From Actinomycetes bacterium (GTDB lineage: Bacteria > Actinomycetota > Acidimicrobiia > Acidimicrobiales > Ilumatobacteraceae): a stretch of 64,000 bases of DNA. This document shows, piece by piece, positions 3,900-57,001 of this stretch. A model generated the notes under the pieces. That model saw only the letters and a list, made by a program, of their open reading frames with translations. It had not been told where the DNA came from and ran no database searches. The stretch lies in contig JAKOUY010000006.1 in assembly GCA_029782355.1 (NCBI GenBank), positions 1 through 64,000 of the forward strand. Direction: 5' to 3'. Position 1 is the stretch's first letter; each line of letters starts with the position of its first letter. The position numbers and the translations under genes are program-made.

Positions 3900-5333
3900 C
3901 TACGTTCCCGAGGCTAGACCGGCGGTGCCACCCCCGCCGGGACCCCCGCCGATCGTGCCGCCCCGACCGAGGCCAGCACCGACGGTGCCGCCGTCACCCT
4001 CGCCGAGCCCGGCCGAGCCGGAGCCGGGAGGCCCGAGGCCCACCGTCGCGCCGACCGGCCCGCCGAGGCCCAGCGACCCGCCACCCGAGGGCAACGAGCC
4101 GTCCTTGATCCCGAACGCCGCGGCGATGAGCGCCACGAACGGCCGAGCACCGCCAACCCTGGCGGCCACGCCCGAGCCGCGGGCCACCACCGCGAGGCCC
4201 GCGCGCACCTGCCCCCGCCCTGCGTGGACGCCCACCGGCCCCCGAGCCCCGAGGCCCACCACCGCCGCCGTGCGGCCCGCAGCGCCGTGCACCCCGGTCA
4301 CGCGGCCCTGAGCCGCTACAGCGCCCCTGACGGCCCCGGCGGTGGCCTTCGCCGCCACCGCCGCCGGGAACGTCCCCACGGCCGCCACGGCCACGCCCGC
4401 ACGGGCGGTGACGCCTGCCCCGGCGGACGCTCCGATCCCCACGTAGGCCGACACGCGGCCGAGCACTACGTCCGCTTCCGCCGCCGTCCCCGGAGCGGAG
4501 GCGGGAAGCCCCAGCGCCGCCCGTGCCGCTCCCGTGGTGGCTCGGGTCCCCGTCGCCGCCACGGGGAGGCCCAGCGACGCCTGAGCGGCCCCCAGCGCCC
4601 CGTGGGTCCCCGTCGCCCGTGCCGCCACCGCCAGGGCCGCGAAGGCCCGCCCAGCGCCGCCCTTCGCGGCCAAGACCACCGCCGAGGCCCCGAGCGCCGC
4701 CCGCACCGCGCCCGAGGTCGCCCGAGCCCCCGGAGCCGCCACCTCGACGCCGAGCACCGCCTGTCCGGCTCCCGTGGTGGCCTTCGCCCCCGAGGCCACG
4801 CGCGCCCCCACCCCGAGCACCGCCCGCACCTGACCCGCCGCGGCCTTGGCCCCCGCCGCGGTGGCCGCCGCCGGAGCGTGCGCCGAGGCGCGCCCGAGGC
4901 CCTCCTCCTGGCCGCGTGCCACCGCCGATACGGCGAGCACCGCCCGCACCTGACCCGCCGCGGCCTTGGCCCCCGCGACCGCCGACGCTGCCGCGACGAC
5001 CGGCGCGGCGATGCCCTCGGCGACGACCGCCGGAGCCCCCGCGGCCGAGGCGGTCACGGCCAGCGCCGCGGACCCCGCACCCGCGGTGGCCTTCACCCCC
5101 GCCGCCCGGACCCCCACCCCCAGGTACGCCCGGACCTGCCCCGACGCGGTCTTCGCCCCGAGGACCTGCGCCGAGGCCGTCGCCGCCGCGAGCGCGGCAC
5201 CGCTCCCAGCCTTCCGGCCAGTGACCTGCGCCGAAGTAGGAGCCGCAACGACCGCGGCACCCGCCACGTTCGGCGGAGGAGCGCCACGCAAGATCAGGAC
5301 GTTCGTCGGTTGCCCGCGCCCGAGGATCGCCAT
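3900..5333 (-). CDS. Ala/Gly/Val-rich tandem-repeat virion protein
   Basis: 477 residues made almost entirely of degenerate 20-residue repeats of the pattern GxKAxxGxxRAxLGVxAxAx, ending in a Gly-rich tail. Two repeats are identical at DNA level over 43 nt (4814-4856 and 4934-4976, exactly 120 nt apart), showing recent duplication. Start ATG 5333. It sits among neck and tail genes, so it is probably a structural repeat protein (fibre, decoration or spike), but no known family was recognised. The antisense strand is also open because of composition, so coding on the minus strand is inferred from context and repeat logic. Confidence 0.6.
   Translation of the reverse strand: MAILGRGQPTNVLILRGAPPPNVAGAAVVAAPTSAQVTGRKAGSGAALAAATASAQVLGAKTASGQVRAYLGVGVRAAGVKATAGAGSAALAVTASAAGAPAVVAEGIAAPVVAAASAVAGAKAAAGQVRAVLAVSAVARGQEEGLGRASAHAPAAATAAGAKAAAGQVRAVLGVGARVASGAKATTGAGQAVLGVEVAAPGARATSGAVRAALGASAVVLAAKGGAGRAFAALAVAARATGTHGALGAAQASLGLPVAATGTRATTGAARAALGLPASAPGTAAEADVVLGRVSAYVGIGASAGAGVTARAGVAVAAVGTFPAAVAAKATAGAVRGAVAAQGRVTGVHGAAGRTAAVVGLGARGPVGVHAGRGQVRAGLAVVARGSGVAARVGGARPFVALIAAAFGIKDGSLPSGGGSLGLGGPVGATVGLGPPGSGSAGLGEGDGGTVGAGLGRGGTIGGGPGGGGTAGLASGT
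4814..4976. repeat. 43-nt exact direct repeat, 120-nt period
   Basis: Positions 4814-4856 and 4934-4976 are identical, exactly 40 codons apart in the repeat-protein gene. The in-frame spacing points to expansion by unequal recombination or slippage of coding repeats. Confidence 0.9.
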
Positions 5334-5338
5334 CTACG

Positions 5339-6394
5339 TCACCACCGGCTCGCCCGGTGCACCGCGTGGTCATGCACCGCGATTGTCCGGCCGGTCCGGA
5401 GATCCATCGCTGACCAGTTGTCCAGTTGCCCTCGGGCGACACCCGTGTTCGCGAACAGGTGGAACCCGGCCCGGGTGCCCGACGTGATCGCCGTGTCAGT
5501 AGCGGTGATCGTATGGTTCACGGTCTCCGCACCGCTGGCGACGTGGTGGCCGAGAATGGACGAGCCGCTGACGTAGCAGCGGTGCCGCTGCGCGCCGAGC
5601 GCGTACGTCCGGGCCGTGTTCCCGAGCGACGTGTAGACCCCCGCGACCCACTTCCCCGCGTTCAGGTTGTTACCCGCCGGGTTGATGCACCGCCGCCCCG
5701 CCCCGTACATGGTGAACGCCGACGACGACCACCGCACACACGCCATCGACGCGCCGTGCCCGGTGTTCGTGCCGATCGTGAGCGTGTGGATGCTCATCAT
5801 GTCGGACGAGTCGAGGTCGGTCTCGGCACGCGCGCCGTTGTCGGTCTGTGCGATGGCGGACGGCTCGACGTGGTTCGACACGATCTGCATCCCCGACCCG
5901 TTCTCGGTCCAGGTGTACGTCGGGCCGAGCGTCGTGCTGTTCGCCGTATTGAAGTTCTCCGACAGGAACGCCCCGCCGCTCGCCCGGGGGATCGCGACGA
6001 TCCGCTCGCCGCCGAGCCACACCTCGTAGAACCCGCGGTGCGTCGGCCGCAGCGCGTTCCACCTGTCCGCCCGCCGGTCGTCGGCATGACCGATGAGGAG
6101 TTCGGCGAGCACGTCCGCCAACCGGTTCGCGTCGAGGGTCACGCCCAGCAGGTTCCCGACCCGTTGTCGCGCCGGATGCGCCCAGCCCGCGTCGTCGTGC
6201 ACGTCGTCGGCGAGCACCCGAGCGCCCGGCCGCAGCGCGTCGGGGGAACACGCAACGACCGCCAACCCTTCGGGGACGGTGCAATCGCCACGCAGGTCGA
6301 TGCCCGTCCACTCCGCCGTAGCGGCGTCCTCGATGTCGGGGAAGAAGCCCGACCGCTCGGCGTCCCACCGGTACCCGACCAGGGCGACGGTCAT
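5339..6394 (-). CDS. virion/minor tail protein with LamG-like beta-sandwich
   Basis: 351 residues, ATG 6394. The N-terminal ~140 residues are mixed; from 'FLSENFNTANSTTLGPTYTW' to the end the sequence has the alternating beta pattern of concanavalin/LamG-like domains (GSGMQIVSNHVEPSA, DSSDMMSIHTLTIGTNTGH, RCYVSGSSILGHHVASG). Such domains are common in actinophage structural proteins and may bind host sugars. It ends 5 nt before the repeat-protein start. Exact virion role unknown. Confidence 0.55.
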   Translation of the reverse strand: MTVALVGYRWDAERSGFFPDIEDAATAEWTGIDLRGDCTVPEGLAVVACSPDALRPGARVLADDVHDDAGWAHPARQRVGNLLGVTLDANRLADVLAELLIGHADDRRADRWNALRPTHRGFYEVWLGGERIVAIPRASGGAFLSENFNTANSTTLGPTYTWTENGSGMQIVSNHVEPSAIAQTDNGARAETDLDSSDMMSIHTLTIGTNTGHGASMACVRWSSSAFTMYGAGRRCINPAGNNLNAGKWVAGVYTSLGNTARTYALGAQRHRCYVSGSSILGHHVASGAETVNHTITATDTAITSGTRAGFHLFANTGVARGQLDNWSAMDLRTGRTIAVHDHAVHRASRW

Positions 6395-6887: not shown

Positions 6888-7207
6888 GTGGTCACCGTCC
6901 CCCGAGCATCGCCGCGCACGCCGAACGGCCCGGCACGCTCGGCGTGGAACGCGTCGCGCAACGCGACGAACGCCTCGACCTCGGCGTACGGCACCGGGTC
7001 CACGTCCTCCCAGACCTCGGTCGCGACCGAGCAATCGGGGCAGACCACCGACAGGCCCCGACGCACGATGTTCCCGTCGGCGTCCGTGAACACGTCCCAC
7101 AGCCACGGGGCGTCGCCCCGCGGTTCCTCGACCTCGCGGCCGCACCCCGGGACCGGAGGACGGAGGAGCGCCGTGTCGGCCTTGGCTCCCGTGCAGGTCA
7201 CCTTCAT
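6884..7207 (-). CDS. hypothetical protein with paired cysteines
   Basis: 107 residues from ATG 7207 (GAGGG site 7 nt upstream). Contains CTGAKAD...PGCG and a later CPDC pair, which could form one zinc site, followed by an acidic/helical C-terminus. It overlaps both the upstream and downstream genes' ends closely, so it belongs to the structural operon. Function unknown. Confidence 0.6.
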   Translation of the reverse strand: MKVTCTGAKADTALLRPPVPGCGREVEEPRGDAPWLWDVFTDADGNIVRRGLSVVCPDCSVATEVWEDVDPVPYAEVEAFVALRDAFHAERAGPFGVRGDARGTVTT

Positions 7208-7217
7208 CGGGCGGCCC

Positions 7218-7817
7218 TCAGACCAGGTTGCCGATGATGTCGAGGTCGCCCGCCGCGATCGTGTACGTGCCCGCCGCGGCGAAGGTCTCGGGGATGCACC
7301 GGGTGAAGAAGATCTCGCCGTCGGCGGAGATCGCCACCGCACCACCGCCCGAGGTCGTCTCGACCTTGAACGTGTCGGTCGCCACGTCGCGCACGTAGTA
7401 GACCGTGCCCTCGGTCAGTCCGGTCGGGAGGCCGCCGCCGGTGATGTCCATGACCACGACCCGCTGGCCGTTCGTGAGGCCGTGCGCCTTGGACGTGATC
7501 GTGTCGTCGTCCGTTTCCACGACCCCGACCTGCAGCGGCTGCCCGCCGACGGGCCACCACCCGGCGGTCTTGCCGTCGCCCGCGGCGAGGGTGGTCTCGA
7601 AACCGACGAACGCCACGGTCGCGCCTGCCGGGACGTTGAACGTCTCGGCGTCCGTGTTATCGCCGATCGCCGACGCGGCGGCGTCCCACGCGACCGCGTT
7701 GCGCGCGTAGGTGCCACCGGCCAACTCGGTGAGGGACTCATCGAGCAGCGCCAGGTGAGAGATCCCACCCGTGACCGCGTCGACGGCGGCGTTCTGGCGT
7801 GCGGTGCTGAACGGCAT
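7218..7817 (-). CDS. virion structural protein (tail- or fibre-like)
   Basis: 199 residues, ATG 7817. It begins with a motif common in actinophage virion proteins next to the tail tube gene (VTGGISHLALLDES, ARNAVAWDAAA, FNVPAGATVAFVGFETTLAAG), then a beta-rich segment resembling 'TDDDTITSKAHGLTNGQRVV' attachment-type repeats. A minor tail or head-fibre role is likely. Which is uncertain. Confidence 0.55.
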   Translation of the reverse strand: MPFSTARQNAAVDAVTGGISHLALLDESLTELAGGTYARNAVAWDAAASAIGDNTDAETFNVPAGATVAFVGFETTLAAGDGKTAGWWPVGGQPLQVGVVETDDDTITSKAHGLTNGQRVVVMDITGGGLPTGLTEGTVYYVRDVATDTFKVETTSGGGAVAISADGEIFFTRCIPETFAAAGTYTIAAGDLDIIGNLV

Positions 7818-7835
7818 GGCGCGAGCCCTCCGGGG

Positions 7836-8510
7836 CTAGGACAGGACCGGGATCTCCGCGTAGTCCACGGGGGACGAGGCGGCGGGCAGGGCGTCGTCGT
7901 AGAAATCGAAGTAGACGACGTTGCTCAGGTCGCCGACCACGTCGAAGTCATCGAACGGCCCGTTGCCGATGTTCGGGTTGGCCTGGGCGAAGCCCTGGTA
8001 CACGGGCATCGCCGTGCCGTCCTCCCGGGTGTAGCCCTGCGGCGTGAGGAACGCCCGGGGGAGCACCGCCCGCTGGTACGGGTAATCGGCCTTCGGCGCG
8101 TCGCAGTCCCACAGGTCGGACCACAACTCGATGAGGACGCCGTTGCTCGCCACGGCGTCGCCGCACCCCGCACCCGACACGATCGCCCGACCCATCGGGT
8201 AGTCGTTCGCGTCGGTGAGGAGCGTCGCTCCGCCGTGCAGGATGATCTCGGTCAGGCGCGGGTCGTCCCGGCACAGCGTGAGCGTGAACGTCGTCCACTT
8301 CACGGTGTCCTCACGCTTGCGGATCACGCACGCGTTCCCCGAGGCGTCCCGGTCGAAGATGTTGCTGCCTTCCTCGACCTCGAAATTGTGCTCGAAGGTC
8401 GAGATGCCGCCGCGCATGACGAACGCGCCGACGGCGTTGCCGTAGTCCGGCGTGCCGTCCTCGGTCAGTCGGGAGATCCGAACGGCGCGTGCACCGATGA
8501 TCGATTCCAT
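7836..8510 (-). CDS. putative major tail (tube) protein
   Basis: 224 residues, ATG 8510. The N-terminus (MESIIGARAVRISRLTEDG) and core (GGISTFEHNFEVEEGSNIF, IRKREDTVKWTTFTLTLC) have the single beta-rich domain layout of siphophage tube proteins. No other candidate lies between the terminator-like gene and the chaperones, the usual place, so the tube gene must be here or outside the window. It is preceded by a small CGC-type protein and the capsid genes. Confidence 0.5.
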   Translation of the reverse strand: MESIIGARAVRISRLTEDGTPDYGNAVGAFVMRGGISTFEHNFEVEEGSNIFDRDASGNACVIRKREDTVKWTTFTLTLCRDDPRLTEIILHGGATLLTDANDYPMGRAIVSGAGCGDAVASNGVLIELWSDLWDCDAPKADYPYQRAVLPRAFLTPQGYTREDGTAMPVYQGFAQANPNIGNGPFDDFDVVGDLSNVVYFDFYDDALPAASSPVDYAEIPVLS

Positions 8511-8658: not shown

Positions 8659-9650
8659 CACGAACCCCCAGCGGCGTAGGGGTTCGCCGCGAGCGCGGCG
8701 AACGCGGTGCACGGGTCGAACCGGAAGATGCCAGCCCGCTGGGCGACGACCGCTTCCGTGTTCTGCCGTCGGGCGTCGGCCGTGTCCGGCACGGTGAGCC
8801 GCACCGACGAGAGGGCGTACTCGACGGGGCCGGTCACGTACACCCACGCCTCGTCGGCCGCGTTGCCCGCGTAGTCGGGGTCGGCCGAGTCGCCGTCGGC
8901 GACGATCGGGCCCGCACCGTTCGCGCCGGTCACCGTCACGCCCCACGGGTAGCCGGGCCCGGGGGACACCAGCGACCCGAGCGGGCCGCGGTACACGTTG
9001 CCCTCCGGCGTGGCGATCTTGCCGCCACCCGGGAGGCCACCGAGCGCGCCGGTCATCAGGATCGAGGGCACGTGCAGCACCGCGCCGCCGAGGCCGTTCG
9101 TGGCGGCCTCGTACTCGGCGAGGAGCCGGGCCACCACCACGTCGAGGTCCTCGGCCGTGCTCCCACCGTCGGCGAGCGTCGCCGACCGGCGGAGCGTCAC
9201 CGGGAACCCGAACTCGGACGACGCGGCCACGGGCAGGCCCTCGCCCATCCACAAAGCGCGGGCCAGCCCGTGAGCCGTGTGCGCCTCGGTGAGCGCCCTC
9301 GCGGCGTCGCTCAGGCCAGCCTCGGCCCCGGCCCAATCGCATTCCAGCGGCGTGTAGACGTGGAACACGGGGGACCAGGCGGGCGACCCGTACGACGACC
9401 GTTCCATCGGGGACCCCTCGGGGTCCGTGGGGCAGTCCTCCCACGGGTAGGACTGCTGGCACCCGAACGACTGCCACGCGATCCCACTCCGCCAGGAGGC
9501 CCGGTTCATGTCCACCCCGGGGAGTGCACCCGCCACGTCCTCGGGGATCGGGGCCGAAGCCCCGAACCCGTCGGACGAGCGGTCACGCGCCGTGGTGAGG
9601 ATGCTCGGGACCGGAGCCTGGACCGGGATCGGTCCTACCGGTTGCGCCAT
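8658..9650 (-). CDS. conserved capsid-adjacent protein of unknown role
   Basis: 330 residues, ATG 9650, directly after the major capsid gene. It has an N-terminal Pro-rich stretch, a helical centre (LSDAARALTEAHTAHGLARA, DLDVVVARLLAEYEAATNGL) and a C-terminus ending RFDPCTAFAALAANPYA. Proteins with a similar C-terminal 'FDPC...F' end follow capsid genes in some actinophage-like elements. A minor capsid, encapsulated or tail-connecting role is possible. No known domain recognised. Confidence 0.6.
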   Translation of the reverse strand: MAQPVGPIPVQAPVPSILTTARDRSSDGFGASAPIPEDVAGALPGVDMNRASWRSGIAWQSFGCQQSYPWEDCPTDPEGSPMERSSYGSPAWSPVFHVYTPLECDWAGAEAGLSDAARALTEAHTAHGLARALWMGEGLPVAASSEFGFPVTLRRSATLADGGSTAEDLDVVVARLLAEYEAATNGLGGAVLHVPSILMTGALGGLPGGGKIATPEGNVYRGPLGSLVSPGPGYPWGVTVTGANGAGPIVADGDSADPDYAGNAADEAWVYVTGPVEYALSSVRLTVPDTADARRQNTEAVVAQRAGIFRFDPCTAFAALAANPYAAGGS

Positions 9651-9708
9651 CGTTCCACTCCTCGGGCGTGTGTTACTCCGTCAGGGACCTTGCCGAACCG
9701 CTCGCGAC

Positions 9709-11589
9709 TCAGGAGAAGTCGCAGGCGGGCGGCTCGATCCACCCGGCACGTGCGCCGTTGCCGCACACGTTCACGTCGATGCTGAACCAGGGGGCCGGGC
9801 CCTGCTTGGCGAGGAAGAGGAACTCCTCGGCGAAGTACTGGGTCCGGTTCTGGCGGAGCAGCGCCGTGTCGGTGGTGGTGCCGACGTTCACCTGCCCGGT
9901 CTCCGAGTAGAGCGCCGCGCCCGGGTCGATGACCCGGATGCGGTACGTGTCGGAGAGGGGGGACAGGGCGACGGCCGCCTGGCCCACCGGGTTGAGGGTC
10001 TGGAACGGGAGCGAGGGCTCGCCGCCGAGGCTCGGGTCGAGCGAGGCGACGACGTTGCCCACGTCCACCCGGTCCCGCACGTACGCGAGGGCGTCGGTCA
10101 CGTTGATGCCCTCGAACCCGCGGGAGGCCAGGTCGATGCGGAGCAGGTGCACCAGCCCCGGCGGGAGGATCACGTCGTACGTGGTCTCCTCCTCACGGTT
10201 GAGGTAGGTGGCCTGCGCGATCGCCGTGTTCACGGCCTCGATCACGGTGGGCACCGCGCCGTACTCGCCCTCGAACGTGTAGCGGTGGGACAGGGCGTCG
10301 ATCCGCTGGAGGATGCGGCCCTCCTTGGTCCGCGACCGGAGCGCCCGCAGGGCGTTCATGAGGTTCGCCAGGTTCTCCGGGTTGGACATCTCGTGCGTGA
10401 TGTCCCACAGGAGGCAGGCGGTCACGGCCTCGGCCTTGATCGACTCGGCGCTCGGGCAGTCCACGACGAGGCACGGCTTCCACGTGCTGCTGTCGTCGGG
10501 GTCCACCGCGGCCTGGTCGTCCTCGTCCCACAGCGCCACCGCTCCGTTGAGGTCGGCGAGGCCGACCGAGCGGAAGTACTGGAACCCGAGCCGGGTCGCC
10601 GGGGCCGACGGGAACATGTCCCGCACCGGCTCCGACGTGTTGAACGCGTCGGGGATGTCCCGGCGGATGTCGAGCGGCTCGCAGATCGCCGCGGCGCGTG
10701 CCGTCGGGTCACCGGTGAGGGCGGCCGAGCGGGCGGCGTACCAGTCCTCGCGGATCTGGCGCATCGCCGCCGAGTTGCCCTCGGCCGACTCCCGGCCGAT
10801 CACCGCGTCGCGGTCGAACCCGGCCATCTCCTCGTAGGACTGGAGCGAGGCCACGATCGTCCGCTGGCGGGACTTGTTGGTCCGGTCCAGCGCCTCGCCC
10901 AGGTCCTCCATCGCCATCTCGCCGCCGACCGCGGTGCGGTCGGTCGAGAGGGCGGCGACGAGCGCCGCACGGGGACGGGTCCGGGCCGGAGCCGCCGACG
11001 CCTGCTGCGCCGCCGCGGGCTGGGTACCACGCGCCGCCGCGATCTGCGCCGAGGTCGGCCGGGCCGGGGTCACGCTGGCGAGCGCCATCTCGGGCTCGGG
11101 GAGCGGGGCCTCGTTCTCCAGGTCGGCGGCGAGGGCGGCGAGGCCGTCCTGCACGGCACGCTGCTCCTCGATCCGCCGCCCGAGTTCGGCGGCGATCGCG
11201 TTCCGGCGGCCGGTGGCCTCACGGATCGCGTCGAGGTCGGCCTGCGTGCGGGCCGTCTGGCGGAGCGCGTCCCGGGCCTCCTCGATCGAGTGGGCGAGGG
11301 CCTGGAGGTCCTCGGGCGACTCGGCGGTGAGGTCGGTCGGCAGGGCCGGGATGCTGGCCTCGGGGGAGGTCGCGCCCTCGGTGCTGGCCTCGGCCGGAGC
11401 GTCACCCTCGGCGGGTGCACCCTCGGCGGGGGCGTCGCCCTCTGTGGCGGGCGCGTCGGTCGCGCCTTCGGCGGCGTCGCCCGCGGGGGCGTCGTCGTCG
11501 CCGTCACCACCACGGACACCGGCGAGGTAGATCGCCAGGTTCCGAGGCGAGAGGTCGGAGAGGTCGTCGTGCGAGTGGATCGGGGCCAT
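9709..11589 (-). CDS. major capsid protein, HK97-type, with N-terminal scaffold-like region
   Basis: 626 residues. ATG 11589 is preceded by GGGAG at 7 nt; an in-frame TTG 15 nt further up is a weaker start. Residues ~25-90 are Ala/Glu/Asp-rich; ~90-160 form a predicted coiled coil (LQALAHSIEEARDALRQTAR, IAAELGRRIEEQRAVQDGL), as in delta/scaffold domains removed on maturation. The C-terminal ~400 residues look like an HK97 coat protein (LMNALRALRSRTKEGRILQR, TYDVILPPGLVHLLRIDLAS, YFAEEFLFLAKQGPAPWFSI). The protease gene lies upstream across the non-coding block. Confidence 0.8.
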   Translation of the reverse strand: MAPIHSHDDLSDLSPRNLAIYLAGVRGGDGDDDAPAGDAAEGATDAPATEGDAPAEGAPAEGDAPAEASTEGATSPEASIPALPTDLTAESPEDLQALAHSIEEARDALRQTARTQADLDAIREATGRRNAIAAELGRRIEEQRAVQDGLAALAADLENEAPLPEPEMALASVTPARPTSAQIAAARGTQPAAAQQASAAPARTRPRAALVAALSTDRTAVGGEMAMEDLGEALDRTNKSRQRTIVASLQSYEEMAGFDRDAVIGRESAEGNSAAMRQIREDWYAARSAALTGDPTARAAAICEPLDIRRDIPDAFNTSEPVRDMFPSAPATRLGFQYFRSVGLADLNGAVALWDEDDQAAVDPDDSSTWKPCLVVDCPSAESIKAEAVTACLLWDITHEMSNPENLANLMNALRALRSRTKEGRILQRIDALSHRYTFEGEYGAVPTVIEAVNTAIAQATYLNREEETTYDVILPPGLVHLLRIDLASRGFEGINVTDALAYVRDRVDVGNVVASLDPSLGGEPSLPFQTLNPVGQAAVALSPLSDTYRIRVIDPGAALYSETGQVNVGTTTDTALLRQNRTQYFAEEFLFLAKQGPAPWFSIDVNVCGNGARAGWIEPPACDFS

Positions 11590-11749
11590 GAGCGGCGCTC
11601 CCAAGGTGTCCGGCGACGGTCCTACCGTCGCGGTGTCCTACGTGTGGGGGATCGACCGCGCCGCTCGATGGCGACTCGCGTTCCGGGATCGCTCGTAGGC
11701 GGGCCCGTCGGAGGGCAACGGTATCAGGTTCCGTGGCGGAGTCAAGGGA

Positions 11750-11764
11750 TCTCCGCGCGGAGAC
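11750..11764. repeat. palindromic 15-mer TCTCCGCGCGGAGAC, copy 1
   Basis: Near-perfect palindrome also found at 43775-43789 and 59328-59342. This copy is non-coding and overlaps the 21-nt direct repeat. The other two are inside genes and both encode Glu-Ser-Pro-Arg-Gly-Asp with the rare serine codon TCT. Confidence 0.6.
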
Positions 11765-11777
11765 GCGACGAACCCCC
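11757..11777. repeat. 21-nt direct repeat, copy A
   Basis: Identical over 21 nt to 13092-13112. This copy lies near the capsid-proximal end of the non-coding block; the other lies just outside its promoter-proximal end, so the two bracket the block. Confidence 0.85.
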
Positions 11778-12269
11778 CGACCCGTGCCCGGCTCCGTGGC
11801 CGAGGATTGGGTCGAGGGGCTCGCGGCTCCCGGGATCACCGGCGGGAGTGCCGGGGCCCGATTGGCGACTCGGGACCTGGACGGCTCGGGGTTGCACCCC
11901 CGGCGGGTGACCGGCATGGCTCCCGGTAGAGCGCCACGGCACCGCCGAGGCTCGGGCCCGGATCACGCTCCGGGCGGCGGGACTGCGTGGCAAGGTCGGC
12001 GGCTCCCCGAGTGATCAGCCCGGCGAGCCGTCGTGCGGTCGTCGTGTCCGGCGCGAGGACTCCGGCACCGGGACCGCGTGCCCGCGGCCCCGTCCGGCTC
12101 TTCAGGGCCTGCGCCCTGCCCCGACGGTCTCCCGACCTCCTTGCCCGTGTAGCGGTCCGGCGGCCCACCGAGGAACCCCGGCGGGATCGCCCCGAGTGTC
12201 CAGCGCGGGAGGCGTGAGCCCGACCCCGCGCAGGGCTGCGACCCGGTGAGCCGCCGCATCGCTACACGT

Positions 12270-12396
12270 CGTGAGTGCTGATCGCTCGGGCTCGCCGTCC
12301 TCGGGTACCGCGCCCGAGGTCGCGCCTCGGCCCTTGCGGGCAGGTCCGGGTTCTTCGCCGGAACGTTCCCGACGAGCCCGAGCGATCAGCCTCACG
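12270..12396 (-). other. predicted four-way RNA junction
   Basis: GCTGATCGCTCGGGCTCG at 12277-12294 is perfectly complementary to 12373-12390, and pairing extends through CGTGAG/CTCACG with one bulge. The enclosed 78 nt holds three further hairpins: 12299-12319 (7 bp stem, 7-nt loop), a GCCC/GGGC stem and a TCCGG/CCGGA stem. This layout is expected of a folded RNA and not of coding sequence. Confidence 0.7.
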
Positions 12397-12996
12397 TGTG
12401 CCGACTGGCCCGGCGGCCGCCTCACCCGCCAATTCGGGAGTGTTGGCGACCGCCCGGCGCTCCGGTTGCGGGGGTCTCAGGCGGCCTGTAGCGGCTCCGC
12501 CGCGTACCTCACTGGACCCCGGCCGGGTCGGCGATCGTGGTGAGCGAGCGATGCGGCCGGGGCCGTACAACGGCATCCACCAGCGGGCGTCCCCGCCGAG
12601 CCCCAAGGTCCCCGGCGCTCGTAGTCCGGTTCGTGGTTGGGTCACCACCGCGCACCGTCCCGGTCCTGGCCCGGGCACGCGGTCCCGATGCACCGTACGC
12701 CGTACGGCCCTGGTCGCATCACTCGCTCGCGAGCACCGGCGGGTCGTGCTGCTCGGGTCCTCACCGCTCGGCGGTGACCTCCCGGCCAGCGACGCTGGGG
12801 CCACGCCCCGCCGTGCTCGCTCGTTCGTCATCCCGTGGCCCGTACGTTTGGGTGCCGGGGACTCTCGTCCCGCCCTCCGCCTGTGGGGCCTCTCGGTGCT
12901 TGTCCGCCGGAGCGGGGGAGGGCTCGTGCCCTGCCCCCGCCTACCGGTTCGCTCTTGGGGGTTCGATCGTCGTGGTGGGCTCCTTCGCTCGCCGTG

Positions 12997-13036
12997 CTGG
13001 ACATGTCCAGTATACATCGGCGGCGGAGGATTGCAA
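12997..13036 (-). promoter_or_regulatory. repeated phage promoter-operator, copy P1 (orphan)
   Basis: -35 TTGCAA at 13031-13036, 16 bp spacer, -10 TATACT at 13009-13014, palindrome CTGGACATGTCCAG at 12997-13010. Upstream is GAAGAAATC. The leader GAGCGAAGGAGCCC downstream matches that of the plus-strand copy P7, but instead of ATG there is ACCACGACG and no gene follows. Confidence 0.85.
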
Positions 13037-13091
13037 GCCCTCGCGCGAGATTTCTTCGGATTCCCTCGCGAGCCGCCACCGGCTTGGCCGA

Positions 13092-13112
13092 GCGGAGACG
13101 CGACGAACCCCC
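13092..13112. repeat. 21-nt direct repeat, copy B
   Basis: Second copy of the repeat at 11757-11777, here forming the distal flank and part of one arm of the terminator hairpin after the capsid protease gene. Confidence 0.85.
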
Positions 13113-13136
13113 GAGAGGATCGCCCTCGGGGGTTCG
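13104..13136 (-). terminator. terminator hairpin after the capsid protease gene
   Basis: CGAACCCCCGAG pairs perfectly with CTCGGGGGTTCG across a 9-nt loop, 26 nt after the protease stop. No U-tract follows, as is common in high G+C genomes. It insulates the downstream promoter P1. Confidence 0.7.
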
Positions 13137-13161
13137 CGCGCGTCCGGGTCCGTGTGCCAGC

Positions 13162-14769
13162 CTACGAGGGCAGGGGCACGTCCTCGGCGATGATCCGCTC
13201 CGCCTCGGCCGCGACCGGCGACGGGATCGGCACGTCCTCGGCGACGAGCGACGCCACCTGCGCCTCGATCATCGCCGACGCGAACTCCTCCAGCGCCTGC
13301 ACCCGCACGGCGAGGGCGTCGAACTCCTCGCGGGTCGGGGGCTCACCCGGTGCACCGTCCTCCGGCGCACCGTCGCCGCCGTCCTCCGCCATCGGCATCG
13401 CGTCGCCAGGCGCGGCGGTCCACGGAGCCTCGGGCGCGGCGTCGCCGAGCGCGGCCGACATCCGGGCGTAGTAGAGGTTCAGCGCCTCACGGAGCGCGGC
13501 GGCCGCGTCCATCGGGAGCGCCCGGTCGACCCCGGGGTGGTGGTCGTGGATCGCGGCGGCCGCGGCGCGGATGCCCGAGGGCATGGCGACGAGCGACCCG
13601 TCCACCACGTCGGCGATCGGGAACCGCGGCTCGGCGTCGCCCTCGGCCCACAGGAACGCGGAGGCGTAGCGGGCCCGGTCGAGGTTGCCCTCGTCGTCGG
13701 TCGCCCACCGGGTCAGGCGGGCACGTACCCCGTCCTCGTCCCAGCCGCGCTCGGGGTCGCCGAGCGGGAGGTCGAGCGCCACGGTCATGGCCTCCTCGAT
13801 CGCCGCCGCTCGGGCTCGGGCCGTTGCCTCGGCGGGCGTTTCGTCCTCGATGACGATCGCGCCGTCGGGGCCGATCGTGGTACGTCGGGCCATGCCAGCC
13901 ACCTCCTGGTCGATGCGGAGCGTACCGTCGGGCTCCGCGGTGATCGGGGACCCGTCGGCCGGGTCCTCCAGGTCCACGCCACCGGCACCGCCGAGCAGCA
14001 CGGTCGGAGCACCCCCGAGGCTCGCCGCGTACCCGGCGACGAGCGGGAGCGCGGGCCGGGTGACGAGCGTCGGGCCGATGCAATCGAACCCTTCCGCGGC
14101 GTTCACCGCCGCGGCCGTCACGCCGTTCATCTTCCACCACGACGGCGGCATCGAGCGCCAGTCGCCCGAGAGGGCGCACCGGCGGAGCATCGCCACGTCG
14201 CCCCACGTGAGGCCGGGCACGACGGCCCCGGCGATCCATGCGCCGCGCTCGTTGTCCCCGGCTCGGCACACGATCATCTGCGCGTTCGGGTCGGCGTAGT
14301 GCCGCTGCGCCTGCTTCCAATCGATCCACGGCGACGCGTGGCCGTGAGTGTTCCCGATCACGCCGCACTGGAGGACCTTGCCGCCCGCGACGACGACCTC
14401 GTTCTGGTGGAACGCGGCGTACCCCGTGGGGCTCGGGCCCGGGCACGCGGCCTGGTCGTGGATGATGCACGCGCCGAAGTCGAAGAAGTAGCCGCCGACC
14501 CTGCCCTCGTCGGTCACGGTCAGGCGGAGCACCCCGGTCTCCGGGTCGAGGCTCGGGCCGAGCCCGTGCTCGGCGCGCCAGTCCTCCACCCAGGTCGGCT
14601 CGGTGAACCACTCGGCGGGCGGGTACTCCGGCGTCGGGAACGGAGCGTCGAACGGCTCGGTGAGCACCGCCGCACGGGTGAGGTTCCCGGCCGCGCCGTC
14701 GGCGACGATCACGGGTCCGGCGACGACCTCGGCGGCGGGGTGCTGGCAAGAGCACGCGGGGCTGGTCAC
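13162..14769 (-). CDS. probable capsid maturation protease
   Basis: 535 residues from GTG 14769, with GAGGA 5 nt upstream; a GTG at 14784 has a poorer site. The central part matches by eye the actinophage protein usually named capsid maturation protease: 'LTVTDEGRVGGYFFDFGACI', then YAAFHQNEVVVAGGKV, GVIGNTHGHASP, and 'AQMIVCRAGDNERGAWIAGA' followed by LRRCALSGDWRSMPP. The conserved His/Ser residues fit a protease, but the catalytic set was not proven. The C-terminus is acidic and helical, possibly scaffold-like. The gene precedes the capsid gene, as expected. Confidence 0.6.
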   Translation of the reverse strand: MTSPACSCQHPAAEVVAGPVIVADGAAGNLTRAAVLTEPFDAPFPTPEYPPAEWFTEPTWVEDWRAEHGLGPSLDPETGVLRLTVTDEGRVGGYFFDFGACIIHDQAACPGPSPTGYAAFHQNEVVVAGGKVLQCGVIGNTHGHASPWIDWKQAQRHYADPNAQMIVCRAGDNERGAWIAGAVVPGLTWGDVAMLRRCALSGDWRSMPPSWWKMNGVTAAAVNAAEGFDCIGPTLVTRPALPLVAGYAASLGGAPTVLLGGAGGVDLEDPADGSPITAEPDGTLRIDQEVAGMARRTTIGPDGAIVIEDETPAEATARARAAAIEEAMTVALDLPLGDPERGWDEDGVRARLTRWATDDEGNLDRARYASAFLWAEGDAEPRFPIADVVDGSLVAMPSGIRAAAAAIHDHHPGVDRALPMDAAAALREALNLYYARMSAALGDAAPEAPWTAAPGDAMPMAEDGGDGAPEDGAPGEPPTREEFDALAVRVQALEEFASAMIEAQVASLVAEDVPIPSPVAAEAERIIAEDVPLPS

Positions 14770-14827
14770 GTCGTCCTCGTCCACGACCCGCGAGGGTAGA
14801 CCAGCCGGGTGGGGGTGCCGAGGATCA

Positions 14828-51437: not shown

Positions 51438-51763
51438 CGGGCGAGCACTCCCAGGATTCCGTGAGCCCACCGCGGCGCGGCGAACTCGATGGACACGGAC
51501 ACGATGGGGTCGCTCCCCGAGTCGGCGAGGCCGAGCGAGAGGGTTCCCACCGGGTCGTCGGCCGCGGCGAGTGCCGGGCGCGTGTAGAACCCTCCCGCCT
51601 CGTCGGCGTCGGGCTCGTTGCATCGCTCGGTCCCGTCGGCCCCGACGCTGATCCGGTCGTAGGTTCCGCCGCGCCAGTACCACCCGAGGCGCGGGAGGGG
51701 GATGTTGCTCACGTCCCACGACCACGACCACCGGCCGTGGCGGGCATGGCCCCACGCGTTCAC
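51434..51763 (-). CDS. hypothetical protein
   Basis: 109 residues, GTG 51763 in GTGA overlap with the intein-containing methylase. Beta-rich: LGWYWRGGTYDRISVGADGT, DPIVSVSIEFAAPRWAHGIL. Function unknown. Confidence 0.55.
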   Translation of the reverse strand: MNAWGHARHGRWSWSWDVSNIPLPRLGWYWRGGTYDRISVGADGTERCNEPDADEAGGFYTRPALAAADDPVGTLSLGLADSGSDPIVSVSIEFAAPRWAHGILGVLAR

Positions 51764-54522
51764 AGCAGCGCTCCTTGCTCCCACCCGTCGCCCTTGGTCC
51801 GCACCTTCGGCGGCGGCGGTGCTCCCGGCTCCCACGCGCGGGGAGCGACGCGGGCATGCTCGATGCGGGCCTCGGCGATCGCCACGTACTCCGCCTCGCG
51901 TTCGATGCCCACGAACGCGAACCCCTCCAGCACACAGGCGATGCCGGTCGTGCCCGACCCGAGGAACGGATCGAGGACGGTGCCGCCGGGCGGGGTGACC
52001 ATCCGCACCAGGTGGCGCATCAGGTCCACGGGCTTCACGGTGGGGTGCACGTTGCGGGTCGGCGGGGACGGGACGAACTCGAACGCGTCGCGGTCGTGGC
52101 CGCACGTGCCGGGCGTGCCGGGTCGGGTGCGGCTCCCGCACTCGCGACACAGCGACGACCAGGCGGACTGGTCGGAGCGGTCCCGCTCGGGGAACCCGGC
52201 GAGGCCGCGGTTCCGTTCGGCGGTGCTGGCCTTGGTCACGTAGAAGAAGCGCGACGCCCCGCCCGCGTCGGCATACCCGACCCCGACGCCCTGGTCGGCA
52301 CCCTGGCGCGACCTCGGGCCGAGCGGCGTCGCCCCGAGGCTCGGCCCGCGGGTTACCGGCCCGCTCGGCGAGGACGAGTCCCCGGATTGGGCATCGAGTT
52401 CGGCGACGGGGCACCCGGGCACGCAGGCCCACTCGGGGATCATCTCGCGGCCGCCCTCACCGTAGGACACGTCGGGGCCCTGGCGGACCGGCGCGTGGAT
52501 CGGCACCGCCGAGTCGGTCGGCGACCCCTCGGGCGGACGGTTCCGGTTCACCGCGGTGCCGGTCGGGACCTCCCGCCACCCGACCTGCTCGCAGGCGGGA
52601 TCGTGGGAGAGGATCACGTTCGTCGGGTAGCGGCCCTTGGGGTTGGTCACGTAGTCGGCGTCGGCGTCGGGGTCGGTCTTCCACGGACGGCCGCGGGGTT
52701 CGGTCCACGTGCGGGCGTGGCCGTCGAGGCGGCTGGCGTCGATGTTCAGCGCGCCGGTGCCGTAGGCCAGCACGTTGTCGGCCACGGTGCCGATCAGCGG
52801 CTTGCGGGCGACGACGATCGGTTCGTGGCCCGGCTTCAGCGCGGTGCCCCACCCGTTCCACGCCTGCCCCTCGGGCGACGCGGGGTGGTACTCGCGTGCG
52901 AGGCGGTCCATCGCCTCGGGGTCGTCGTGGAGCCCCGGGCGGTCCCAACCTTCGTGGCCCTGCGACTCGCCGGGCTTGCCGCGCATCCGGCCCCGTTCGA
53001 TCCACCCGGCGTGCTCGGCGCTCTTCGGTGCTCCGAACGTGCCCTCCACCCCGAGGCGCGCATCGAGGGCCTTCGCCACGTCCAGGCTCTTGGGGAACCC
53101 GGAGTTGCCGGTGACGAAAACCCGGCCGTTGCGGCGCGCGAGGAACGCGCCGGTCGGGACGCCCACGCACCAGACCTCGCCCGTGTAGTGCTCGGCCGCG
53201 TCGGCCAGGTGGCGGTGCTGGAGTTCGGTCATGGCAAACTGGCGGAGGTACACCGCGCCGCCCGTACGGTCGCGGCGCATACCGACCTTGCCCGCACGGC
53301 CAACGAGGGCGAGCAAGGTCTGGAACCAGGTGAGGTCGTCCTCGTGCTGCTGGTGGAACTGCTCGGCGCGGGAGCCCCACCCGGAGCCGTCACCGAGCAT
53401 GGCCGCCCGGAGGAACGCCTGCTTCTCGGTGACGGTCATACGCCAGAGGAGCGGGTACGTCGGTCGCTTCCCGGGGAGATCGCCGCGCACGCTACGAGCG
53501 AGGGCTCCCGACAGAAACCAGGTGGTCTCGGTGTAGTCGTGCCGTTCGCCGTTTCGGCGCGTGTAGGTCCGGGCGCGGTCGTACCGCTTGTGCGGGCCGA
53601 GCCATCCGAGCCGGTCGAGCAACACGGCGATCTCCGCGACCTTCTCGGCGTTCACCGACGATTGGTACACACGGACCCCGGAGCCCGAGAGGTCGAACCC
53701 GCCCTCGGTCCACACCCACCCGAGCAGCGCGGCGTAATCCTCGCCGCCGATCCCGTCGCCGTCATGGAACCCCCCGAGCGGGAGCCGCACGGGGGCGCTC
53801 GTCGTGACGGCTTGCGCCTCCGCCGCCGCCCAGCCCGAGTCGTACCAGGTGCGGCGCACTCCGTCGACCTGCTGGCGGCGCTTCTCGCGATGCCAGACCC
53901 GGTGGTTCGGCGTGAGCACCTGGTCCGTGTCGGCGTTGCGGAGCACCCGCATCGGTCCATCCCACGGGACCCGGTAGGTCCGCTCGACGGGAGCGAGGGT
54001 GACGGCTTCCGTCGTCGGGTCCCATTGCGCGATCCGGTCGCCGACCTCCACCTCGATGCCGGGCTTCCAGCCGTGCTCGGTCAGGACCTCGGCGTCGGCC
54101 GTGAGGCACCCGTAGAGCCAGTCGATCATGTCGCGGATCTCGTAGCCCGCGTCCTCGATCGCCGAGGCGAGCCGGTGGTAGGTGCGGGTGCCGGAGAACG
54201 CCAGCAGGTAGCCGCCGGGCTTGAGCACCCGGAACGCGGCGGCGGCCCACCGCTCATGCCACGCCTGCATCTCGCGGGCTCCGGTCGCGCCCGCGCCGTC
54301 GCCGTAGCGGATGCGGCTGTACGGGTTGCCACCCGCGCCATCTTGGAACCCGCCGACCTCGGCCGGGTCGTCCACCACCGAGCCGCCCCCGTCGAGGCGG
54401 TCCCACGCCTTGCCCATGAACTCCAACCCGTAGGGCGGATCGCACACGATGGCGTCGATCGAGTTGTCGGGGAGCCCGGCGAGCACGTCCACGCAGTCGC
54501 CGTGGTGCACGGTCACGCTCAT
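51760..54522 (-). CDS. DNA methyltransferase interrupted by an intein
   Basis: 920 residues before splicing, ATG 54522. N-extein (1-138): VTVHHGDCVDVLAGLPDNSI, IVCDPPYGLEFMGKAWD, SGTRTYHRLASAIEDAGYEI, DMIDWLYG. Intein 139-473. C-extein resumes SGFPKSLDVAKALDARLG and ends with GGTVLDPFLGSGTTGIACVL. Joined, the exteins restore the common phage methylase string LYG-SGFPKSLDV, giving a ~585-residue enzyme. It adds methyl groups to DNA (N4-C or N6-A class). Confidence 0.9.
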   Translation of the reverse strand: MSVTVHHGDCVDVLAGLPDNSIDAIVCDPPYGLEFMGKAWDRLDGGGSVVDDPAEVGGFQDGAGGNPYSRIRYGDGAGATGAREMQAWHERWAAAAFRVLKPGGYLLAFSGTRTYHRLASAIEDAGYEIRDMIDWLYGCLTADAEVLTEHGWKPGIEVEVGDRIAQWDPTTEAVTLAPVERTYRVPWDGPMRVLRNADTDQVLTPNHRVWHREKRRQQVDGVRRTWYDSGWAAAEAQAVTTSAPVRLPLGGFHDGDGIGGEDYAALLGWVWTEGGFDLSGSGVRVYQSSVNAEKVAEIAVLLDRLGWLGPHKRYDRARTYTRRNGERHDYTETTWFLSGALARSVRGDLPGKRPTYPLLWRMTVTEKQAFLRAAMLGDGSGWGSRAEQFHQQHEDDLTWFQTLLALVGRAGKVGMRRDRTGGAVYLRQFAMTELQHRHLADAAEHYTGEVWCVGVPTGAFLARRNGRVFVTGNSGFPKSLDVAKALDARLGVEGTFGAPKSAEHAGWIERGRMRGKPGESQGHEGWDRPGLHDDPEAMDRLAREYHPASPEGQAWNGWGTALKPGHEPIVVARKPLIGTVADNVLAYGTGALNIDASRLDGHARTWTEPRGRPWKTDPDADADYVTNPKGRYPTNVILSHDPACEQVGWREVPTGTAVNRNRPPEGSPTDSAVPIHAPVRQGPDVSYGEGGREMIPEWACVPGCPVAELDAQSGDSSSPSGPVTRGPSLGATPLGPRSRQGADQGVGVGYADAGGASRFFYVTKASTAERNRGLAGFPERDRSDQSAWSSLCRECGSRTRPGTPGTCGHDRDAFEFVPSPPTRNVHPTVKPVDLMRHLVRMVTPPGGTVLDPFLGSGTTGIACVLEGFAFVGIEREAEYVAIAEARIEHARVAPRAWEPGAPPPPKVRTKGDGWEQGALL
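53104..54108 (-). mobile_element. 335-residue intein with LAGLIDADG-like homing domain
   Basis: Begins with Cys (CLTADAEVLTEHGWKPGIEV, block A) and has block B-like RVLRNADTDQVLTPNHRVW with the TxNH motif. Two LAGLIDADG-like helices, YAALLGWVWTEGG (~125) and KQAFLRAAMLGDGSG (~230), mark a homing endonuclease. The end is AFLARRNGRVFVTGN followed by Ser as +1. The penultimate residue is Gly instead of the usual His. Insertion exactly in a conserved methylase motif is typical of inteins. Confidence 0.9.
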
Positions 54523-54734
54523 CCGAGGACCCGCTCCAAGGTCGGGCCGGTCACGTCCTCGGTGCGGCGAGCGGCGCGCACGCGCCACTGGTCCATCGTG
54601 AGCAGCGACCACCCGGCCGGGGCGGCGTCGGCGAGGGGGAAGTCGTCCTCGTCGTAGTGCGGGCAGTCGCAGCCCGGCGACCAGCACTCGGGGTCGTGGT
54701 CCTCGATCGGGTGGCCGCACACACACGGGCCCAT
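54519..54734 (-). CDS. small Cys/His-rich protein
   Basis: 71 residues, ATG 54734. CVCGHPIEDHDPECWSPGCD then CPHYDEDDF: a dense zinc-ligand cluster recurrent in actinophages. C-terminal helix. Overlaps the methylase start. Confidence 0.65.
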   Translation of the reverse strand: MGPCVCGHPIEDHDPECWSPGCDCPHYDEDDFPLADAAPAGWSLLTMDQWRVRAARRTEDVTGPTLERVLG

Positions 54735-55357
54735 CACGCCACCACCTGAGCACGGGCGAGGTCCTGCGCCTCGATCACCCGAGCCCGGGCGACGAGCACG
54801 GCCTCGCGCATCGCGGTCCACGACTCGGCGACCGCGGCCCGGTCCAGCGCGGTGAGGGCGTCGGCCATCGCCTCGTCCAGCGTGCGGGGTTCCACCCGCT
54901 CCGGCTCGGGTTCGGGCTCGGGCTCGGGCGCGGGCGGGTTGGCCGTGCCCTTGATCTCCCGGACCTTCTCCCGGACCTCGTACTCGCTCAGGTGCTCCTC
55001 GGCCGCGGCCTTGAGCAACGTGCGGCGCGGCTCGGGGTCCAGCGACGCGGCGGCGCGGTGCACCGAGAACGGAACCTCGGGGTTCCGCTCACCCGGCGGG
55101 AACCGCTCGGCGACCCATTGCGCGTTCTTCAGCGTTTGCACGGCGTAGCCCGTGGCCTCCACGGCGTCGACGTACTTCTCGCCGAACCGGTGCTCGCCGT
55201 AGCGGAGCCAGTCGCCGACCCACCACATCGCCGACTGAGCCATCGCGATGAGGATCGGCCCCTCGGCCGCCCACTCGTCGTAGGTGAGCCCGGCGGGGAG
55301 TGAGTAGCCGGTCGGGCTCACGGTGCCCTTCAGCGGGCCTCTCGGTTCCAGCGTCAT
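54734..55357 (-). CDS. phage HTH-type DNA-binding protein
   Basis: 207 residues, ATG 55357. ILIAMAQSAMWWVGDWLRYG, EHRFGEKYVDAVEATGYAVQ, LKNAQWVAERF and later LKAAAEEHLSEYEVREKVRE match an actinophage family annotated as DNA-binding (WWxGDWL...GYxxQTLxN). A Pro/Glu repeat linker and helical C-terminus follow. Sits among methylase genes and may regulate them or replication. Confidence 0.7.
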   Translation of the reverse strand: MTLEPRGPLKGTVSPTGYSLPAGLTYDEWAAEGPILIAMAQSAMWWVGDWLRYGEHRFGEKYVDAVEATGYAVQTLKNAQWVAERFPPGERNPEVPFSVHRAAASLDPEPRRTLLKAAAEEHLSEYEVREKVREIKGTANPPAPEPEPEPEPERVEPRTLDEAMADALTALDRAAVAESWTAMREAVLVARARVIEAQDLARAQVVA

Positions 55358-55596: not shown

Positions 55597-56339
55597 AGCC
55601 CCAGCGATTCCTGAGCCAAGCGGCGGGCCGCCAACTCGCAGAAGCGTTCCGAGAGTTCGATCCCGATCGCGCGCACGCCGCGATCCTTCGCCGCCCGCAA
55701 CGTCGAGCCGGAGCCCATGAAGGGGTCCACGACCGAGGCGGCCCCCGTGGCGTCGATGCATCTGCCGGGGAGCGCCGCGGGGAACGGGGCGGGGTGGTCG
55801 GGGACCCCGGTTTCGATGCCGAGCCGCCACACGTCGCCCATCCCGGAGGCGGCGTGATCCACCAGGGCGAACTCGGGCGTGGCGAAGACCATGATCCACT
55901 CCGCACGTGTGCAGAAGTGGCGAAGATTCACGTCGATGCCCGTGCCGCGGTCCCACGTGATGATCTGCCGGAGCGGCAACCCGTAGTCGAACCCGAGCGG
56001 AACCTGCAGGCGTCCGTGGATCACGCGCGGCCGGTGGTTGTAGAAGATCCCGAGGCGCACCCGTTCCCACAACGCGGCGAGCACGGATCGCTGCCAGGCG
56101 TCGTAGTCCTCGGCGGGCATGGCGTCATCGTGCTCGCCGTACCCGTCGCGAAATCGTCCACCCTTGGTGCTCGCTCCGGGCGCGTACAACCCGCGACCGT
56201 TGCCGCCCGGCACAAGTCCCATGTTGTAGGGCGGGGAGGTCACGGCGATGTCCACCGTGGGGATCTCGGGGAGGACCGCGAGGCAATCCCCGTGGTAGAT
56301 CGTGCAGGTCCCGTCGTCGTAGAACGGCGTGAGGCTCAT
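55593..56339 (-). CDS. DNA methyltransferase (SPPY type)
   Basis: 248 residues, ATG 56339. CTIYHGDCLAVLPEIPTVDI, DIAVTSPPYNMGLVPGG (catalytic SPPY, N4-cytosine-like), VVDPFMGSGSTLRAAKDRGV and RAIGIELSERFCELAARRLA (SAM site). Paralogous in layout to the next upstream gene, with the same MSxTPFYDDG start, so the pair arose by duplication. Confidence 0.88.
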   Translation of the reverse strand: MSLTPFYDDGTCTIYHGDCLAVLPEIPTVDIAVTSPPYNMGLVPGGNGRGLYAPGASTKGGRFRDGYGEHDDAMPAEDYDAWQRSVLAALWERVRLGIFYNHRPRVIHGRLQVPLGFDYGLPLRQIITWDRGTGIDVNLRHFCTRAEWIMVFATPEFALVDHAASGMGDVWRLGIETGVPDHPAPFPAALPGRCIDATGAASVVDPFMGSGSTLRAAKDRGVRAIGIELSERFCELAARRLAQESLGL

Positions 56340-57001
56340 CCGAACAGGACCTCCTGGCCGAGCCGTTGCGCGGCGTGCTGGCAGTACCGCTCCTCGACCT
56401 CGATCCCGATGGCCTCGCGGCCTTCGTCCTTCGCCGCTCGGATCGTGGTGCCGCTCCCCATGAAGGGGTCCACGATCACGGCGTCGGCCGGGCAGTAGCG
56501 GACCAGTTTCCTCATGAGTTCGATCGGCTTCTCGTGGGGGTGGACGAGCGACCCGCGGTACACGCGGAGCGGGAACGTGAGCACCGACGACTCGCGGCCT
56601 TGCGGGTTCTCCCACTCGCGGCCGCGCACGTAGATCAGTTCCCAATCGGGCTTCCACGGAAGGGCGAGGTCGCCCATCCCCGAGCCCGGCTTGCTCCAGA
56701 TCAGCGTGGCGTTCACCGGGTCGGGGATCGGCGGGGCCTTCGGTGATCCGAACACGATCGCCGGACGTTCGCCCCACAACGCGAGCACGGCGTCGCGTGC
56801 CGCCGTGTCGGCGTCGCCCTCGATGCCGGTCGGGTATTGGACGCCTCGGTGCATCGAGGTCTTGTACGCGATCCCGTAGGGCGGGTCGGTGACGAGCACG
56901 TAGCGCGACCGGCGGTGGGCGAGGACGGCGGGCAGGATCTCCAGGGCGTCGCCGTGGAAGATCCTGCACCGCCCGTCGTCGTAGAACGGGGTGGGGCTCA
57001 C
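56336..57001 (-). CDS. DNA methyltransferase (DPPY type)
   Basis: 221 residues, GTG 57001 in GTGA overlap. PTPFYDDGRCRIFHGDALEI, YVLVTDPPYGIAYKTSMHRG (catalytic DPPY, N6-adenine or N4-cytosine), VYRGSLVHPHEKPIELMRKL, VIVDPFMGSGTTIRAAKDEG and EAIGIEVEERYCQHAAQRLG. Divergent paralogue of the downstream gene with a different catalytic tetrapeptide, so they may recognise different sites. Confidence 0.88.
   Translation of the reverse strand: MSPTPFYDDGRCRIFHGDALEILPAVLAHRRSRYVLVTDPPYGIAYKTSMHRGVQYPTGIEGDADTAARDAVLALWGERPAIVFGSPKAPPIPDPVNATLIWSKPGSGMGDLALPWKPDWELIYVRGREWENPQGRESSVLTFPLRVYRGSLVHPHEKPIELMRKLVRYCPADAVIVDPFMGSGTTIRAAKDEGREAIGIEVEERYCQHAAQRLGQEVLFG

Follow-up and report, generated by a model that had tools for sequence, protein, structure and literature searches.

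The 64-kb window, i.e. the whole stretch of DNA analysed here, is part of an 82,997-base phage contig with 74% GC (C10), and a crude gene caller places its genes mostly on the minus strand. Terminase, portal, protease-related and major capsid genes are present in the window, and minor tail genes in the remainder of C10, outside it. The major capsid protein gene (9712–11589, minus strand) is recognized by its match to PHROG 777, major head protein (E 4.7e-19). Capsid proteins of Gordonia and Arthrobacter phages, 17 out of 50,697 phage records, share 25–28% identity with its product over 47–58% of the length, and we infer for C10 a tailed phage whose host is actinobacterium-like. The gene positioned upstream (13165–14784, minus strand) codes for a protein related to capsid maturation protease and portal families (PHROG 859 and 18402 among four families). 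Between these two genes lies a block of ~1243 nt (11757–12999, minus strand, predicted ends), proposed as a structured non-coding RNA on the basis of its flat codon phase and folding excess. DNA methyltransferase-like genes were also observed, at 51763–54753 and 56339–57001 in the window and at 7072–8472 in locus L029 (whose segment ~4957–5356 equals 68957–69356 of C10); one of them is 997 aa long and one also matches ParB-like families.

Coding potential and borders of the block

The three codon phases of the block have GC contents of 0.73/0.77/0.75, as compared with 0.72/0.53/0.96 for the capsid and 0.75/0.55/0.94 for the protease gene. Codon phase is flat in ten consecutive 300-nt windows (starts 11551–12901), and the longest flat runs of the whole window fall in the block. 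Other gaps of C10 longer than 1.2 kb left by the crude gene caller are not flat throughout and are therefore taken as genes of another codon profile. The longest ORF in the block has 189 aa, a length equalled in 55% of 200 shuffles. A Pfam search with nine ORFs overlapping the block on both strands, up to E 0.1, disclosed a single match (E 0.092), far below the cut-off, and a PHROGs scan of two overlapping ORFs gave none. The initial annotation, in which no frame of the interval looked like protein, thus holds: codon phase is flat, the longest ORF is of chance length, and a protein with convincing database matches was found neither among the nine ORFs compared with Pfam nor among the two compared with PHROGs. 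As far as can be read from its sequence, the block is non-coding. Its limits were originally set to 11590–12997; 11757–12999 is retained as RNA, but 11590–11756 looks like the promoter and leader of the capsid gene itself.

The promoter scan identified a phage promoter, TTGCAA-16-TATACT (13036–13009, minus strand), directly abutting the palindromic operator TGGACATGTCCA, the two together occupying 12998–13036 on the minus strand. This bears out the earlier reading of a complete phage promoter firing into the block. The exact operator palindrome is present in ten copies in C10, each behind a similar promoter (promoters with exact operator TGGACATGTCCAGC at 13009, 15207, 16442, 16921, 18784, 19674, 19776, 42250 and 50231 of the window and at 69261 of C10). 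Allowing up to one mismatch, TAT..TGGACATGTCCA is matched 11 times in the assembly and in no contig other than C10, and a search of genome contigs for the operator gave one match, in a Defluviitaleaceae contig. Because the palindrome follows the −10 box in ten copies, the block may be under repressor control, and the ten operator-bearing promoters likely make up a phage repressor regulon. Six of the nine other copies are situated at 15–20 kb, largely before short ORFs, possibly accessory genes, and not in the capsid operon. GGAG and then ATG follow within 60 nt after nine of the ten exact copies, the block copy being the exception. Its leader-like transcript start (12941–12997, minus strand) has a Shine-Dalgarno-like AAGGAG (12985–12980) followed after six bases by ACG (12973–12971), where the sister leaders carry ATG, with 10 codons to a stop.

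Divergent operator-promoter pairs were observed at 19674/19776 and, with one mismatch, at 69160–69176/69261. The strongest-folding 400-nt minus-strand window of the contig (68957–69356 of C10, z −10.8) contains a divergent pair of this kind and is likely a control region. Beside the divergent promoters in the window there is a 23-bp helix (G-U allowed; 19943–19821, minus strand) which is not explained by operator repeats.

At the 3′ end of the block, a terminator-like hairpin of 16 pairs (13 Watson-Crick and 3 G-U; 11768–11824, minus strand) has z −5.33 (0 of 200 shuffles); it is without a U-run, and the terminator scan found no terminator. The 3′ arm of this hairpin, together with its tail, duplicates the 3′ arm of a strong hairpin located after the protease gene (13147–13088, minus strand, z −5.56). 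The two resulting 25-nt direct repeats, both on the minus strand, mark the 5′ border (13088–13112, the 3′ arm of the post-protease hairpin) and the 3′ border (11753–11777, its copy) of the putative insert; they are identical in 24 of 25 letters and 1335 nt apart. A separate promoter-like sequence before the capsid gene, TTGACT-16-TACCGT (11718–11745, minus strand), was read by eye; the promoter scan listed only the promoter at 13036 and not this one. The capsid ATG is at 11589, ~180 nt past the hairpin. The promoter and operator of the block, the terminator-like hairpin and the separate capsid promoter-like sequence argue for a stand-alone unit and not for a capsid leader. Expression with the capsid genes, as initially proposed, is unsupported, since the operator class mostly stands before short ORFs at 15–20 kb and the hairpin and promoter-like sequence intervene.

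Predicted folding of the transcript

Fold and helices are predictions from one sequence, compared with shuffles. Folded as a whole, the 1243-nt transcript reaches a minimum free energy of −751.5, versus −680.2 (sd 11.9) in 100 shuffles (z −6.0); on the opposite strand the values are −747.8 and −697.7 (sd 11.4; z −4.4), and the energy difference between the minus-strand transcript and the plus strand has z −2.06. Folding of the block with 60 shuffles gave z −6.2 for the minus and −3.9 for the plus strand, and controls at six other positions, on both strands with 16 shuffles each, ranged from +0.8 to −3.8. Among 207 distinct windows of 400 nt along the minus strand of C10, 12157–12556 ranks second (z −8.0). 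Two more of these windows fall in the block, with z −3.0 and −1.7, the latter (12557–12956) being unremarkable, and several 150-nt windows in the block fold with z near 0.

On the minus strand, the predicted structure consists of successive domains with hardly any linker between them. Domain 1 (12728–12542, 187 nt, z −5.25) is closed by a helix with 31-nt arms, Domain 2 (12532–12400, 133 nt, z −3.48) is branched, in Domain 3 (12396–12270, 127 nt, z −8.24) a 21+6-bp helix closes a three-hairpin head, and Domain 4 (12268–12146, 123 nt, z −6.07) stacks helices of 9, 15, 7 and 8 bp; for these four, each folded alone, none of 200 shuffles was as stable. Domain 5 (12145–11989, 157 nt), taken from the whole-transcript fold, is closed by GGCAAGG/CCTTGCC and includes a hairpin with the loop CTGATCA, in which TGATCA is self-complementary; such a loop could support pairing between RNA copies but, by our own estimate, loops of this type are not unusual in random sequence. 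The 5′ CGAACCCCC (12965) can also pair over 9 bp with GGGGGTTCG (11777), in competition with the 3′ hairpin.

The closing helix of Domain 1 (12728–12698 with 12572–12542) is the largest stem, and it is absent from the stems listed in the initial annotation. On the minus strand 29 of its 31 positions are paired (26 Watson-Crick and 3 G-U, with two A-C mismatches), and on the plus strand 28 of 31; with three G-U and two A-C, this largest inverted repeat is thus hardly strand-specific. Over 12 listed helices, G-U and A-C number 14 and 2 on the minus strand, a ratio biased by taking the helices from the minus-strand fold.

With G-U allowed and spans of up to 220, the block has five helices of at least 13 pairs, with 0.47 expected and at most two in 100 shuffles; in a control with A-C replacing G-U, i.e. 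the wobble of the other strand, there are 2 versus 1.8 expected. Along the contig, long helices per 1243 nt average 1.3 on the minus and 1.5 on the plus strand (sd 1.3 to 1.4), with maxima of 6 and 7, respectively; the contig-wide comparison assigns 6 to the block, and up to 8 to the minus strand of the related contig L030, described below. Helix number alone proves little, because the coding DNA of this genome, at 74% GC, often forms long helices too, and the long-helix count was dropped as a feature unique to the block, with contig windows reaching 6–7. Short perfect hairpins (stem at least 7, loop 3–10), with five entries (four distinct) in the block, a window mean of 3.4 and a maximum of 12, are no commoner here than elsewhere and were dropped as evidence. 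Perfect stems recurring throughout, as first described, are therefore confirmed in part: the stem of 12270–12396 does exist and is exceptional, with 27 bp in two pieces, but short perfect hairpins are not in excess.

Relatives of the block and of its neighbours

Searching the window with Rfam at gathering thresholds gave no match, and among the ten sub-threshold matches obtained for 11400–13300 with E up to 10 there was no GOLLD, ROOL or group I/II intron. Rfam likewise gave no match for it in the rest of C10 and in L030. The likeness to known giant RNAs, drawn in the initial annotation, was thus not reflected in a match of the block to any such Rfam family. Covariance models of the group I/II intron core did not match, and the block is located between two ORFs, not within one. 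No matches were found by blastn with the block in 50,697 phage and 72,556 plasmid records. The comparison with 100 genomes (own included) returned short matches only, in 15 others, with best E 2.7e-5, and 395 genomes of the class (own included) contributed matches of 32–53 nt in seven others (E 8e-6 to 1e-4), none convincing. A lenient comparison with the L030 record and two host assemblies again showed short matches only (best E 0.008, and 0.05 in L030).

When the block was compared leniently by blastn with 136 loci, match E-values went down to 5e-6, the best being in loci fetched with the block itself; in the 124 loci left after their removal, the best match is 61% over 229 nt, which is ascribed to chance because 17 of 40 shuffled blocks reach as much. 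In the same 136 loci nhmmer detected none at E 1, and exact operator, terminator-arm and stem patterns had no occurrence each in viral contigs. Two covariance models, each made of one sequence entered twice, represent Domain 3 (R1) and Domain 4 (R2). In 57 sources (747 kb, window included) they found their own place, on both strands, and the best other hits (E 0.015 and 0.032, as rough E-values) were taken as chance; R1 with strict filters in 397 genomes of the order identified its own genome only. A single-sequence covariance model is close to a sequence search, and these results are therefore weak evidence of absence.

The only close relative found for the contig is L030, an 87.6-kb IMG/VR contig (IMGVR_UViG_3300050500_000423). 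Its capsid protein is 54% (best segment) to 58% (alignment) identical and its protease-related protein 57%, and it shares with C10 20 DNA segments of 65–80% identity in largely kept order. For 18 window proteins, tblastn against L030 gave a match in seven cases; the terminase of the window has none. Between the end of the protease ORF (5710) and the start of the capsid ORF (5881), L030 has 170 nt and the block is absent. When the window flanks are joined, their spacer aligns loosely with that of L030, best near the capsid gene. The exact operator palindrome was not found in the L030 record. The block may therefore represent either an insertion in the C10 lineage or a loss in that of L030, and the simpler reading would be that a unit of promoter, RNA and terminator was inserted next to a hairpin arm that is duplicated. 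Just upstream of its protease ORF, L030 carries imperfect ~38-nt repeats (GAGCGAGCCG...CCCC) at 3950–4420 in an apparently non-coding stretch; with fold z +0.9 and +2.2, this stretch was not retained as a counterpart of the RNA.

The capsid protein alone as a query had no match in viral contigs, and an alignment of the window and L030 capsids retrieved only L030 from viral contigs and nothing from genome contigs. A six-sequence capsid alignment yielded 172 relatives, and among the best 80 of these only L030 exceeds 30% identity; the protease alignment yielded 25, the next best after L030 having 38%. In 395 genomes of the class (own included), the capsid protein has relatives in five others, and the best by E-value (L026) is 31% identical and lacks a flat run under the rule applied. 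From the best 80 of the 172 capsid loci, 33 with GC above 0.6 were screened by codon phase, and flat runs of at least 700 nt occur in two (L032 and L071); the other 47 were screened for ORF-free stretches of 300 nt, and there were none. L032 and L071 were rejected as similar blocks, as the run in L071 is inside the capsid ORF and neither is strongly structured (best z −2.8). Flat runs were also present in three of the 25 protease loci (L134, L143 and L153).

Known large RNAs and the nature of the block

GOLLD RNAs are described as large, highly structured and non-coding, encoded in phages and prophages, of unknown function and with expression up during lysis (PMC12286853). The same source presents ROOL as a large ornate RNA of phages and prophages without known partner or function, and reports that GOLLD and ROOL form RNA-only cages whose job is not known (PMC12286853). 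In ICP1, a lytic phage without tRNAs, an RNA of ~800 nt from an orf-less space adjoining lysis genes is the most abundant transcript according to RNA-seq (PMC7567579). For phage K, two long non-coding RNAs of 635 and 1154 nt are given near tRNA genes, the 1154-nt RNA of the table lying in a region to which the text assigns its own early promoter (the names lnc001 and lnc002 are swapped between text and table; PMC9241854).

From what these sources describe, the block shares with GOLLD its large size, predicted high structure, non-coding nature and location in a phage, and by its predicted fold it resembles ROOL as a large ornate phage RNA. It differs from both in having no Rfam match and no tRNA cluster, from GOLLD in adjoining capsid genes and in its length of ~1240 nt, many GOLLD RNAs exceeding 800 nt, and from ROOL in this same length as compared with 659 nt in the solved example. 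With the ICP1 RNA it has in common an orf-less phage space with its own transcript, predicted in the block; the ICP1 RNA is by lysis genes and documented by RNA-seq, whereas the block is by capsid genes and known from sequence. The phage K RNAs are likewise large, intergenic and provided with their own promoter (an early promoter for one of them) but are near tRNA genes; neither for ICP1 nor for phage K did blastn of the block in the phage collection give a match. ARAGORN made one call in the window, a 90-nt tRNA-Pro (9584–9673, plus strand) over the start of the minus-strand gene after the capsid gene, which is probably a false positive, and no tRNA was found in the other 19 kb of C10. In phage phi29, head assembly involves a structural RNA of ~174 nt, the packaging RNA, which is attached to the packaging motor; the block is linked to packaging by gene order alone.

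A literature survey on GOLLD/ROOL, large phage RNAs and actinobacteriophage RNAs, mostly at the level of abstracts and with few subscription journals, disclosed nothing that could be linked to the block. The kind as such is already known, since the long RNAs of ICP1 and phage K, as described, precede it. In its sequence the block displays what characterizes this kind, a kilobase-scale non-coding unit with its own promoter, and it is a candidate new member without an Rfam match.

The block is, in our opinion, probably an orphan gene of a large structured phage RNA under phage operator control. A large structured RNA, as suggested from the beginning, remains the best reading of the missing coding signal, promoter, hairpin and fold, but its co-expression with the capsid is given up. 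In the proposed scenario, the phage would have acquired a stand-alone RNA gene between the protease and capsid genes. Its transcript would start near 13000 at the promoter with overlapping operator and end at the long hairpin near 11768, the downstream capsid gene being driven by its own promoter. With ACG replacing ATG in the leader, it would stay untranslated and fold into at least five densely packed domains. Most likely this structural RNA would be abundant and act in trans, either while the phage infects or once derepressed. That the block is transcribed, that its transcript terminates, that a repressor controls it, that it was inserted here and not lost in the relative, and that it acts in trans are what we infer here. 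By analogy with GOLLD and ROOL, the RNA might serve as scaffold for a host factor or as its sponge, perhaps in multimeric form, a guess in which a multimer or host-factor scaffold is rather unlikely to prove right. We further suggest, tentatively and as a view that may well fail, a new class of giant phage RNA of ~1.24 kb, larger than the named ROOL and ICP1 examples: a mobile operator-controlled module with 25-nt repeat borders in the head-gene block, possibly multimeric through self-complementary loops.

It is unlikely that the capsid mRNA carries the block as a very long 5′ leader, with read-through from the 13036 promoter and a fold that controls capsid translation or mRNA stability. Strand and direction are the same, termination is deduced for a 3′ hairpin without a U-run, and the capsid ATG comes only ~180 nt past it; however, the 3′ arm of this 16-pair hairpin repeats that of the terminator-like one after the protease gene, a separate TTGACT-16-TACCGT (by eye) follows, and L030 has just 170 nt before its capsid gene. 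Excess folding of the plus strand, too (z −3.9 to −4.4), an almost strand-neutral 31-nt-arm repeat (3 G-U, 2 A-C) and 25-nt direct repeats at the borders would suit a DNA-level element as well, i.e. a palindrome-rich insertion acting as replication origin, packaging site or recombination hot spot, its RNA being incidental. Such an element is improbable for a block that is ~75% GC and not AT-rich, has a dedicated promoter with no start codon behind it, and counts 14 G-U against 2 A-C in its 12 minus-strand helices, with the bias of the minus-strand fold.

Drift of an operator-controlled gene after loss of its ATG (now ACG), leaving a decayed protein gene or junk insert, is not expected to yield folding at z −6 or paired arms of 27–31 nt, and the block retains neither codon periodicity nor a protein-family match. 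This origin we hold to be very improbable, even if operator and AAGGAG are kept with ACG six bases on, where the sisters have ATG, and nothing convincingly similar occurs in the searched collections.

If the reading as an orphan structured RNA gene is true, the absence of the block at the same place in the nearest relative suggests that phages would acquire large RNAs as modules. With definable promoter, operator, leader and terminator, it would be a compact gene to delete or express. It also suggests that more such RNAs would escape family-based searches, with lineages having their own.
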